A DNA stretch of 64,000 nt from Ruegeria sp. HKCCD7303 (lineage in GTDB: Bacteria > Pseudomonadota > Alphaproteobacteria > Rhodobacterales > Rhodobacteraceae). A model generated the notes under the pieces. That model searched no databases. It was not told the DNA's origin and saw nothing but the letters and a program-made list of their open reading frames with translations. Numbering within the stretch: the first letter of the stretch is position 1; each line of letters starts with the position of its first letter. This document shows, one piece after another, positions 29,412-45,989 of this stretch. A program made the position numbers and the translations under genes. The stretch covers positions 806,001 through 870,000 of the forward strand of contig NZ_WVRE01000002.1 in NCBI RefSeq assembly GCF_013111185.1. Reading direction: 5' to 3'.

Positions 29412-29446
29412 CAAAAAACCCCAGACGCGGCCAAGCGAAAGGGGTC
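29412..29446 (-). terminator. terminator hairpin in the metZ leader
   Basis: Minus strand: ACCCC-TTT-CGC-TTGGCC-GCG-TCT-GGGGT followed by TTTTT. The 5-bp and 3-bp stems flank an internal loop. It starts about 10 bases after the SAM-II aptamer and ends 32 bases before the ATG. An alternative GGTC/GACC pairing (GGTCAGGATGAAAGACC) would break it. Confidence 0.6.
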
Positions 29447-29454
29447 TTTCATCC

Positions 29455-29512
29455 TGACCTTTTAGCGGTGTTGTTTAGCGTGGCCCGCAATCCGGTAACA
29501 AATCGCCACGTG
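29455..29512 (-). ncRNA. SAM-II riboswitch of metZ
   Basis: On the minus strand the leader reads P1 CGTGGC (29510-29505), GATTT, ACCGGATTGC, closing P1 GCCACG (29484-29479), then TAAACAAC and finally GCTAAAAGG (29466-29458). The order and the conserved pieces GATTT, ACCG-ATTGC and GCTAAAAGG match the SAM-II (metA motif) pseudoknot. TTGTT pairs with AACAA as helix P2a. SAM-II elements control met genes in alphaproteobacteria, agreeing with metZ downstream. The remaining gap up to the GST gene (29513-29714) shows nothing else I can name. Confidence 0.82.
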
Positions 29513-29714
29513 GTCTGTGATGTTGGCCTTACGCCGCACATGCAGAGTCGTCAACCCCGACAAGCCCGTCGTCACAGATCTGTAATCAAAGGTCCGACGG
29601 GCCTTCCCTGCGATGGTATCGCCCGAAGTCACAGCTTTTTGCGCTTCGCCTGCCGCAAGCCCTCTTGCCGATTGCGCAGAAACCCTCATGATCTTTTCAA
29701 CCTGAGGAGAGACC

Positions 29715-43231: not shown

Positions 43232-43249
43232 TGAGTGACTACCCACTCA
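43232..43249. promoter_or_regulatory. inverted repeat upstream of the CRP-like gene
   Basis: TGAGTG-ACTACC-CACTCA, perfect 6-bp arms with a 6-bp spacer, 27 bp before the ATG. It could be a regulator site or a small hairpin. It differs from TGTGA-N6-TCACA by one base per arm, so it may be a second site for the same regulator. Confidence 0.4.
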
Positions 43250-43276: not shown

Positions 43277-43945
43277 ATGACGGCCTTCCCCAACAGCGGC
43301 TTCCTTTCCGAAGCTTCCGACGGGCTCAGAGAAATGCTTTCGGCTCAAGCGACCGAAATTTCCCTGGCCCAAGGCGACACACTTTTTGAACAAGGCGACG
43401 AGGGCGACGCGCTCTACGCAATATTAGACGGCACGCTTGAAGTGTCTTTTCTGGCCATGAGCGGGCGCAAGCTGACCCTGACTCTTATGCGCCCCGGCGA
43501 AGTTTTTGGCGAAATAGCCCTGTTCGACAATGGCCCGCGCACAGCAACCATTGCTGCGGCCGAAGCCTCGCGCGTTCTGCGTGTGCGCCGCAATGACGTC
43601 TTGAAACAGATCCGGCGACATCCTGATCTCGCAGAGGATTTAATCCGGCTGGCCGGATTGCGGATGCGGTACATGGGGTCTCAGTTGAACGAGCAGGTCT
43701 TTTTGCCCATGCCCATTCGACTGGCGCGAAGGCTGCTGCAACTGTCTGGTTTGCAGGACAACCCGTCCGAACGCATTACGCTGTCGCAAAGCGAACTGGC
43801 CGAGTTTGTCGGGGCGACGCGAGAAGCGGTGTCCAAAACAATCTCTGGATGGAAACGTGACAATGTCGTGGAAGCGTCCCGCGGCGGATTGCTGATTCAG
43901 GACTTTGCAGCATTACGTGAGTTAGCCGAATCCGACCTGATCTGA
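43277..43945 (+). CDS. Crp/Fnr family regulator with cyclic-nucleotide-type domain
   Basis: 222 residues from ATG 43277. Residues 25-110 form a cyclic-nucleotide fold with GEVFGEIALFDNGPRTATI, the phosphate-binding cassette including its Arg, so cAMP or cGMP binding is likely; the FNR cluster Cys are absent. The HTH at 168-195 is LSQSELAEFVGATREAVSKTI. Its recognition helix has Arg182, Glu183 and Lys187 where E. coli CRP has Arg180, Glu181 and Arg185, so a TGTGA-type site is expected. Exactly such a site lies 5 bases after its stop, before a probable small RNA. Confidence 0.88.
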   Translation: MTAFPNSGFLSEASDGLREMLSAQATEISLAQGDTLFEQGDEGDALYAILDGTLEVSFLAMSGRKLTLTLMRPGEVFGEIALFDNGPRTATIAAAEASRVLRVRRNDVLKQIRRHPDLAEDLIRLAGLRMRYMGSQLNEQVFLPMPIRLARRLLQLSGLQDNPSERITLSQSELAEFVGATREAVSKTISGWKRDNVVEASRGGLLIQDFAALRELAESDLI

Positions 43946-43950
43946 GTCGG

Positions 43951-43966
43951 TGTGATCTTGTTCACA
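43951..43966 (+). promoter_or_regulatory. perfect CRP-type site
   Basis: TGTGATCTTGTTCACA fits TGTGA-N6-TCACA exactly. It begins 5 bases after the stop of the CRP-like gene and about 25-35 bases before the presumed start of the small RNA, a position fit for activation. Confidence 0.65.
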
Positions 43967-43984
43967 GACCCACGTTCCAACATG

Positions 43985-44099
43985 ACCTAGGGTGAAGTTG
44001 TTACCGTAGGAGGTCAGAGAATCATCCCCGATATCTGTCCACTGACCTCTCCCTGTATCTGAGCCATACGCAACTATTGCGTATGGCTCATTTTTTTTT
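43985..44099 (+). ncRNA. probable small RNA with three hairpins
   Basis: No protein fits here. From about 43990 the strand can fold as GGTGA-AGTTG-TTACC (43991-44005), then a longer arm GGAGGTCAG (44009-44017) with CTGACCTCTCC (44042-44052), then the terminator at 44061-44099. Total length about 110-115 nt. The single-stranded parts contain C/U-rich segments that could meet ribosome sites. A CRP-type site lies just upstream. The exact 5' end is a guess; the alternative is that this is the 3' UTR of the regulator gene. Confidence 0.5.
44061..44099 (+). terminator. strong intrinsic terminator
   Basis: GAGCCATACGCAA pairs perfectly with TTGCGTATGGCTC (13 bp, loop CTA), followed by A and nine T. 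The best terminator in the window. Confidence 0.93.
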
Positions 44100-44169
44100 G
44101 CTGGTGTTCCTGCCCACAATACCGGGCGAACAACGAAAAAGGCCGGGATTTTATCCCGGCCCCTTGCTC

Positions 44170-45663
44170 TTATTCCTCCAGGCTCAGCGCCACAAACCGT
44201 GGATCCCCGCCCCTGCGCACCAATAGCAGCAAAGACTTTCTGCCAGCTTCGCGCGATTCTTCCATCCGCTGCTCCAGATCTCCGATGGTTTCCACTTTTT
44301 GCTGCCCTGCCTCGGTGATCAGATCACCAGCCCGCAACCCCTTGGCATAAGCCTCGGACGCCTGATCGACGTCAGAAATCACCAGACCTTCGGCATCCGC
44401 ATCCAGGCCCAGATCTTCGCGCAACGTATCCGTCAATGGTGAGATGGTAAGACCCAGAATATCCGCATTCTCATCAACCGGGGCCTCCTCAGCTTCCGGT
44501 TCGCCGGTTTCGGCACGTTCTGCGTCTTCACGACGACCCAACGTAACCAGCACAGTCTGGGTACCGCCATCACGGTGCACGATCACGCGCACGGCCTTTC
44601 CGACTTCGGTTTCGCCTACCTGACGAACCAGACCGCGTGTATCCTCGACCTCGACACCATCAAAACTGGTGATCACGTCGCCGGCCTTCAGCCCCGCCTC
44701 TTTCGCCGGGCCTTCCGGTACATCGCTGATCAAGGCACCGCCGGGCTTCTCAAGCCCCATGGCTTCGGCCATGTCCGGTGTTACGTCCTGAATACGCACA
44801 CCCAACCACCCACGGCGCGTTTCGCCAAACTCACGCAACTGATCAACAACTTTGACAACAACGTTCGAGGCCATCGAAAAACCGATTCCGATTGAGCCAC
44901 CGTTTGGTGACAGGATCGCAGTGTTCACGCCTATCACTTCACCATCCATGTTGAAAAGCGGACCGCCCGAGTTGCCTCGGTTGATTGCGGCATCAGTTTG
45001 AATGTAGTCGTCATAAGACCCGCTGAGTTCCCGGTTACGGGCCGATACGATACCAGCCGAGACGGAAAAGCCCTGCCCCAGCGGGTTGCCCATGGCGATC
45101 ACCCAATCGCCCACGCGCGCAACATCGCTGTCCCCGAAGGTTACATATTTCAACGGACCGGACGCCTCGACCTTGAGCAAAGCGATATCGGTTTTCTCAT
45201 CAGTTCCGATGACTTTGGCTACCAGCTCTTTCCTGGGCTGACCGTCACCCGGGAAGAATTCCACAAGGATTTCATCGGCCTCGGCAATGACATGGTTGTT
45301 GGTGACAATAAACCCGTCTTCCGAGATCACGAAACCCGAACCCAAGGCGTTGCTGCGGCGCGGAGCGTCGTTGTCGTCGTCGCCGTTTCTATCCTGAAAC
45401 TCGCGAAAGAAATCCTCGAACGGGGAACCTTCGGGCACGATGCCCTGCGGCCCTGTTTGGTTTTCGATCAGTGTGCTCGTGGTGATATTCACCACCGCAG
45501 GGCTGATCTTTTCGGCCAACGGTGCCAGGCTTTCGCCCCTTGCCTGTGCGGCAACAGTTTGCGCCAGCAAAAGCAGCGAACCGGCAAAGGCCAGCCACAT
45601 CAGCCGCATCCAAACACTCACTTCGTCCCACCGGACGGATACACTGCGCGCTTTCGCCTGCAC
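44170..45663 (-). CDS. Do-family serine protease (DegP/DegQ/MucD type)
   Basis: 497 residues from GTG 45663, which has AAGGAGAGC well spaced upstream; longer starts are not supported. Signal peptide up to QTVAAQA. The trypsin fold is complete: NNHVI (His), TDIALL (Asp) and GNSGGPLF (Ser). Two PDZ domains follow (from about 295, RRGWLGVRIQDV, and about 410, LGLTISPLTDTL), with an acidic linker rich in Glu between them. It handles misfolded proteins in the periplasm. It ends the hflK-hflC-DUF2065 run, 131 bp after the last. Its convergent neighbour is the small RNA terminator. Confidence 0.93.
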   Translation of the reverse strand: MQAKARSVSVRWDEVSVWMRLMWLAFAGSLLLLAQTVAAQARGESLAPLAEKISPAVVNITTSTLIENQTGPQGIVPEGSPFEDFFREFQDRNGDDDNDAPRRSNALGSGFVISEDGFIVTNNHVIAEADEILVEFFPGDGQPRKELVAKVIGTDEKTDIALLKVEASGPLKYVTFGDSDVARVGDWVIAMGNPLGQGFSVSAGIVSARNRELSGSYDDYIQTDAAINRGNSGGPLFNMDGEVIGVNTAILSPNGGSIGIGFSMASNVVVKVVDQLREFGETRRGWLGVRIQDVTPDMAEAMGLEKPGGALISDVPEGPAKEAGLKAGDVITSFDGVEVEDTRGLVRQVGETEVGKAVRVIVHRDGGTQTVLVTLGRREDAERAETGEPEAEEAPVDENADILGLTISPLTDTLREDLGLDADAEGLVISDVDQASEAYAKGLRAGDLITEAGQQKVETIGDLEQRMEESREAGRKSLLLLVRRGGDPRFVALSLEE

Positions 45664-45794
45664 TTGAGCTCTCCTTGTTGACATTCTTGCCAGAACCGCC
45701 GGTACACGGTCTGTCTTGTCAACCAATGTAGTCAGTTTGGTCGGGCTAGCAACTCGGGATCGCGGGGAAATCACCGCCAAGTGAAGCTCTGGCC

Positions 45795-45989
45795 TCAAAA
45801 ACCCAGTTGATGCGCGCCCCAAAGCAGGATCAACCCGCTGATGACGCATAGCAGCCCCATCAAACGGCGCGCCTGTTCAGGTATTGACCGGAACGCTTCG
45901 AGCATACGCTCGATAAGCGAAGGGGCCAGCGCATAGGCCAGCCCCTCGACAATCAGCACCAGCCCGAAAGCCAGAAGGATCATACCCAT
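45795..45989 (-). CDS. DUF2065 (YjeT-like) membrane protein
   Basis: 64 residues, two transmembrane helices (ILLAFGLVLIVEGLAYALAP and LMGLLCVISGLILLWGA). The ATG overlaps the hflC stop (TAATG), so it is translated with hflC. The family accompanies hflKC in many proteobacteria. Function unknown; a role in FtsH/HflKC complexes is inferred from linkage only. Confidence 0.88.
   Translation of the reverse strand: MGMILLAFGLVLIVEGLAYALAPSLIERMLEAFRSIPEQARRLMGLLCVISGLILLWGAHQLGF

Follow-up and report, generated by a model that had tools for sequence, protein, structure and literature searches.

What lies in the 224 bp between a CRP/FNR-family regulator gene (crp below) and a convergent degP/Do-like serine protease gene in Ruegeria sp. 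HKCCD7303: the tail of the regulator mRNA, or a gene in its own right? Our analysis of the 64,000-nucleotide stretch of DNA that contains this locus (the window) and of related loci makes it very likely that the gap holds an autonomous, noncoding small RNA (sRNA) gene of about 99 nt, predicted to be under class II activation by the adjacent CRP-like protein. The degP-like gene (44170..45849, minus strand), named by eye from its sequence, is a syntenic landmark. Since it has a separate terminator-like hairpin of its own (44137..44165, minus strand, by terminator scan), the plus-strand terminator at 44060-44090 is assigned to the crp side. Elsewhere in the window, Rfam places a SAM_alpha riboswitch at 29442-29519 on the minus strand (58 bits; cut-off, 36).

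The regulator and the palindrome behind its gene

The regulator gene (43277..43945, plus strand) encodes 222 amino acids from the ATG at 43277, in a frame that is open from a GTG at 43235. The cNMP-binding domain (PF00027, 2.5e-23) and the Crp-type helix-turn-helix (PF13545, 1.4e-15) both score above the Pfam cut-off and place the protein in the CRP/FNR family; against the equivalog for CRP proper (NCBIfam NF008732), it scores 62.7 bits, far below the curated cut-off of 266. The closest solved structure is 3h3u (1.5e-30), labeled "probably CRP/FNR-family," which we take to be Rv3676, the CRP of Mycobacterium tuberculosis. With 3h3u and E. coli CRP, the regulator has in common the fold family, the phosphate-binding cassette FGEIALFDNGPRTA, a recognition helix of the RExxx(K/R) type, and the site. 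Gly78 and Glu79 are present in 64 of 64 orthologs and Arg88 in 63, and Met and Gly presumably occupy the C-helix adenine-contact positions of E. coli CRP (Thr127/Ser128). The CRP-like helix Arg-Glu-x-x-x-Lys that the first-pass annotation had pointed out is indeed found at residues 182 to 187, with R182 and E183 invariant among the 64 aligned orthologs and K187 kept in 59.

The same annotation had reported a perfect CRP site five bases past the stop codon, and the coordinates agree: the stop ends at 43945, and the 16-mer palindrome TGTGATCTTGTTCACA occupies 43951..43966 (centre, 43958.5), leaving a gap of 5 nt. No other perfect TGTGAN6TCACA occurs in the window, for which dinucleotide shuffles give a mean of 0.09. 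Because the 4.6-Mb genome holds five perfect copies and the reversed control pattern occurs three times in it, the site by itself is only mildly unusual. It is the conservation of this putative site, and not its mere presence, that is the unusual feature. Across 54 Ruegeria loci, which are close kin and hence not independent rows, it is kept with at most one mismatch in all 54 and is perfect in 53. The half-sites are 99.6% pairwise identical, compared with 39% at 4-fold sites of the crp gene, and spacer positions 20 to 37, at 35% identity, are close to that neutral level.

A predicted promoter and small RNA in the gap

Setting the centre of the palindrome at -41.5 puts the transcription start at G44000 and the -10 element at 43988-43993, where TAGGGT stands on the plus strand at -12 to -7. 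This is the geometry of class II activation, and a CRP site at -41.5 is normally activating. The locus thus carries both parts of a class II CRP-dependent promoter, TGTGAN6TCACA at -41.5 and a -10 element at -12 to -7, around a predicted start; a promoter scan found no full sigma-70 consensus promoter on the plus strand here. TAnnnT occupies the exact -10 place in 42 of the 54 Ruegeria loci, compared with 11 of 864 at other offsets, and 8 of the 12 loci that depart from this have TAnnnT one base off. Because MAFFT shifts the -10 columns, their identity in its alignment comes to only 47%. A separate 5' end is a prediction supported by a -10 element at fixed spacing together with a frozen 5' end, as the first 11 nt (GTTACCGTAGG, 44000..44010) are near invariant (97.4% pairwise identity).

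The predicted RNA extends from G44000 to 44098 on the plus strand and is described by a covariance model (R1) built from the 54 loci. Its first hairpin (44010..44049) pairs GAGGTCAG at 44010-44017 with CTGACCTC at 44042-44049 around the loop AGAATCATCCCCGATATCTGTCCA; two-sided changes occur at 7 of these 8 pairs, while the loop, a conserved C-rich segment reading CAUCCCC...UCUGUCC, is 94.7% identical. An intrinsic terminator follows at 44060..44099, and GAGCCATGTG-type terminators are found again in other genera. The nine T residues noted at first pass are there; the stem, given then as 13 bp, comes to 14 bp in the terminator scan (44060-44090, with GAGCCATACGC).

The fold of 43966-44100 beats all 200 shuffles (z = -5.1). 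Two-sided compensatory changes with pairing kept are seen at 14 of the 20 pairs of the two helices in the alignment of 54 loci (A1), and the covariation score of 0.294 is reached by none of 500 shuffles and falls to 0.146 or less when the pairing partners are slid. Pairing is kept at 97.3% in helix 1 and 99.5% in helix 2, some pairs being broken in single genomes. On 21 rows from 15 genera, in an alignment that had been fitted to the structure, 15 of 20 pairs show two-sided changes. These changes are what the first-pass annotation had proposed to look for in the gap of relatives, and the stems and the site, on whose conservation it had let the idea of a small RNA depend, are both conserved.

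That annotation described the stretch as noncoding with three hairpins, of which the noncoding character stands and the number of stems does not, comparison supporting two. The third one, a small hairpin at 43987-44009 in the single-sequence fold, falls on the predicted promoter and start; the RNAalifold consensus, drawn from an alignment starting at 44000, does not have it. The longest closed open reading frame (ORF) is 0 amino acids in 51 of the 54 loci and 6, 13, and 28 amino acids in the others. Since the length of the block varies (66 nt in 42 loci, 67 in 9, 65 in 2, and 73 in 1), no reading frame is kept. The stretch therefore has the structural properties of a bacterial trans-acting sRNA, being noncoding, conserved in structure, and equipped with its own terminator. 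The proposed search of Rfam 15 drew a blank: with gathering as well as relaxed thresholds, no relevant family matched at the place of the sRNA, that of Spot 42 (presumably RF00021) included.

We propose the following course of events. The ligand-bound CRP-like protein would bind the palindrome just past its own stop codon and, from -41.5, recruit RNA polymerase; transcription would then run from about G44000 to the terminator near 44098 and yield an RNA of about 99 nt with a Rho-independent end. We infer both activation by the adjacent protein and pairing of the RNA with mRNAs through its C-rich loop (CAUCCCC, UCUGUCC) or its 5' end. An 18-mer antisense to the loop, allowed up to three mismatches, has six matches in its own genome besides the sRNA (reversed control, 0), and in this one genome none of the six marks the start of a gene that convinces. 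The crp transcript finishes at the sRNA terminator as well, which makes read-through or processed forms likely.

Distribution, cargo, and rival readings

In an 84,980-species collection, 46 stretches contain the 19-mer of the loop exactly; 42 of them are titled Ruegeria, the other four being KLH11, Silicibacter lacuscaerulensis, and two metagenome-assembled genomes. With R1, trained on Ruegeria alone, a search of 394 family genomes (E ≤ 0.01) gave matches in 17, including 15 outside Ruegeria. Twelve of these 15 sit 68 to 376 nt behind a crp ortholog on the same strand (ortholog identity, 58 to 67%); the other three (L124, L126, and L127) have no crp adjoining and were set aside. A broader model, R2, matched in 30 of the 394 genomes, 21 times at the crp locus and on the crp strand (two Ruegeria, 17 clear, and two weak, G220 and G229). 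Fourteen of the 17 clear loci were in its training set, which leaves G167, G331, and G432 as new. We rejected eight R2 matches away from crp, which resemble ordinary terminators (one behind a DUF1127-like ORF), and one in G447 that is antisense to crp.

The predicted promoter is older than the RNA. A crp ortholog (E ≤ 1e-40) is present in 58 of the 394 genomes, and for comparison we took one locus from each of 56 other genera and searched up to 220 nt past the crp stop. A perfect site follows crp in 33 of the 56, a site with at most one mismatch in 45, and one with at most two in 47, leaving 11 loci without a site at the one-mismatch level and nine with none; a control on the final 220 nt of the ORF itself gave 0 of 56 at up to one mismatch. 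Counted from the first base of the stop codon, the start of the site varies between 3 and 174 nt. When the 45 genera are anchored on the site, their profile shows a -10-like peak, GGCAtANT, at -14 to -7.

What follows this promoter differs among genera. We class twelve of the 56 loci as stand-alone sRNAs. Two of these (L139 and L159) have sites with two mismatches; in the remaining ten, the distance from the predicted start to the beginning of the terminator is 46 to 98 nt. Thirteen loci carry an ORF of about 50 amino acids with an invariant W and an invariant Q; 8 of the 13 were scanned, with no Pfam family above the cut-off. At three of the ORF-type loci (L140, L143, and L153), the covariance model places the sRNA module 6 to 13 nt past the ORF stop, that is, in the 3' untranslated region (3'UTR). 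A few distant loci have DUF1127-like ORFs, two of which score below the Pfam cut-off, and the cargo of the remaining loci was left unclassified. A profile of the small ORF had no match in the 37 Ruegeria genomes searched; among the 394 family genomes, it returned the 13 training loci and one new copy, in G231. That copy (G231:C200), identified by the profile alone, lies away from the crp locus, beside a cytochrome c1-like gene (by eye), with three one-mismatch CRP-type sites upstream. The crp gene of G231, a fragmented assembly of 470 contigs, has no site behind it.

These observations bear on several other readings of the gap. The RNA lies on the regulator's strand, starts 54 nt past its stop codon, and has a single terminator in common with it, and several R. 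sphaeroides sRNAs are described as 3'UTR derived (PMC8625941); it might thus be no more than the end of the regulator mRNA, comprising its 3'UTR and terminator and possibly set free by RNase E, with the site serving otherwise. We regard this as unlikely, as a 3'UTR needs neither a palindrome nor a -10 element at fixed spacing nor a frozen 5' end, the distance from stop to site ranges from 3 to 174 nt across genera whereas that from site to -10 is fixed, and the same promoter precedes an ORF in other genera. The position of the palindrome directly behind the regulator gene could also suggest an autoregulatory or roadblock site without a promoter. Yet the palindrome is downstream of the gene, the -10 peak appears at class II spacing in the 45-genus profile, and the same pattern recurs at distant loci, which makes this reading very improbable.

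The identity of the activator can be questioned as well. The genome holds six Crp/Fnr-like matches to the regulator, itself included, and TGTGA-type half-sites are common to several CRP/FNR subfamilies, so that any of the five other proteins could use the palindrome and the adjacency could be historical. We give this little credence, in view of the site behind the regulator ortholog in 45 of 56 other genera and the invariant RE of the recognition helix in 64 of 64 orthologs. That the transcript encodes an unannotated small peptide, as the ORFs of about 50 amino acids at the same place in relatives might suggest, has a negligible chance: the closed ORFs are of zero length in 51 of 54 loci, no frame is kept, and the small-ORF profile is without a match in the 37 Ruegeria genomes. 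The preferred reading, and with it the first-pass idea of a probable small RNA, is supported instead by the conserved site, the 14 of 20 compensatory pairs, and the fixed -10 element.

Searched genome-wide, the full promoter pattern (site, 21 nt, and TAnnnT) has three perfect matches, before the sRNA, before a noncoding RNA behind nadK, and before a gene for a 106-amino-acid protein; the reversed control has 1 + 1 matches even at up to one mismatch. At up to one mismatch there are five independent class II matches, all of them before a small gene, and a third one-mismatch match is the sRNA's own palindrome read on the opposite strand. The second class II promoter, outside the window at G000:C17:316408-316627 (L067/L228/L290) behind a nadK-like gene (named by eye), precedes a noncoding stretch of about 160 nt with a terminator. 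This stretch is matched in 54 of 54 Ruegeria genomes, a few of them partially, with single-base indels among loci, and site and -10 are perfect in 30 of the 30 loci fetched; as it has no Rfam match, we rejected the idea that it is 6S RNA. Also outside the window, at G000:C17:245476 (L066/L258/L289), a perfect site with the -10 element TACACT stands before the gene of the 106-amino-acid, membrane-like protein, which has no Pfam match. The gene has some match in 36 of 54 Ruegeria genomes, several of these being mere short pieces, and site and -10 are perfect in 26 of 27 relatives' loci read. The one-mismatch sites (L293:1501-1543 and L292:1501-1543, both on G000:C17) start 16 and 23 nt before the ATG of ORFs of 41 and 49 amino acids, respectively, which have a common Q.QR.VNR motif; the 41-amino-acid ORF has one relative, 83% identical, in the protein collection.

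Known systems and the origin of the RNA

The sRNA loop, AUCAUCCCCGAUAUCUGUCC, is without CCUCCUCCC, which we take to be the loop motif of CcsR or cuckoo RNAs, and the predicted transcript is without an ORF, whereas cuckoo RNAs are cotranscribed with a DUF1127 small protein; on both points it differs from that group. The CcsR/CIN1 locus of Rhodobacter (ccaF1-CcsR1-4) combines a small ORF, sRNA hairpins, and a Rho-independent terminator in one transcript (PMC10253847), a layout resembling that of the three ORF-type relatives with the module in the 3'UTR, while the Ruegeria RNA stands alone. The promoters differ as well, being of the RpoHI/RpoHII type for CcsR (PMC10253847) and of the CRP type here.

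There is also a likeness to the CRP-controlled sRNAs of enterobacteria, such as Spot 42 and CyaR, in that a CRP-type regulator would set the level of a short, terminated, noncoding RNA. The Spot 42 gene is not known to be tied to crp in enterobacteria, and, as judged from Rfam, it has no sequence kinship with the Ruegeria sRNA. Of the first-pass comparison with a CRP-Spot 42 feed-forward unit, CRP-type control of a short RNA is probable and the feed-forward character hypothetical, and the sign is reversed: the site at -41.5 predicts activation here. CRP-cAMP is a repressor of Spot 42 in exponential-phase Salmonella (PMC5991649).

No CRP-sRNA circuit in marine Roseobacters was among the literature results listed, and it is with respect to Rfam and this literature search that the sRNA is undescribed. 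It may correspond to one of the unnamed intergenic trans-sRNAs already reported for the related species R. pomeroyi DSS-3, where 10 of the 14 differentially expressed sRNAs were higher under carbon limitation, in a paper whose main text contains "Crp" zero times (Rivers 2016; PMC4809877).

A tree of crp with 64 rows, eight from Ruegeria, bears on how the RNA arose; it is midpoint rooted and has several weak nodes. The ORF type branches deep in it, and a 26-row set with support of 96/94 unites the twelve sRNA-type loci, Ruegeria, two ORF-plus-module loci, one ORF locus, and three unclassified ones, the third ORF-plus-module locus (L143) falling outside; the sRNA label, with Ruegeria counted apart, requires six changes on the tree. 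With the ORF type deep and the sRNA types in one set, loss of the ORF is the likelier direction. A CRP-driven mRNA for a small protein of about 50 amino acids may thus have lost its ORF, its 3' end being the source of the sRNA. More broadly, and with slightly less than an even chance of being right, this CRP-family regulator of Roseobacteraceae may be specialized for tiny genes and the sRNA newborn, consisting of the promoter, 3'UTR hairpin, and terminator that were left after ORF loss.

For the marine Roseobacters, this locus offers a defined site, RNA, and regulator for testing. It also bears on how stand-alone bacterial sRNAs originate: because the same predicted promoter appears to drive a small-protein mRNA, an mRNA with the sRNA module in its 3'UTR, and a bare sRNA in different genera, the steps of such a transition may be directly compared here.
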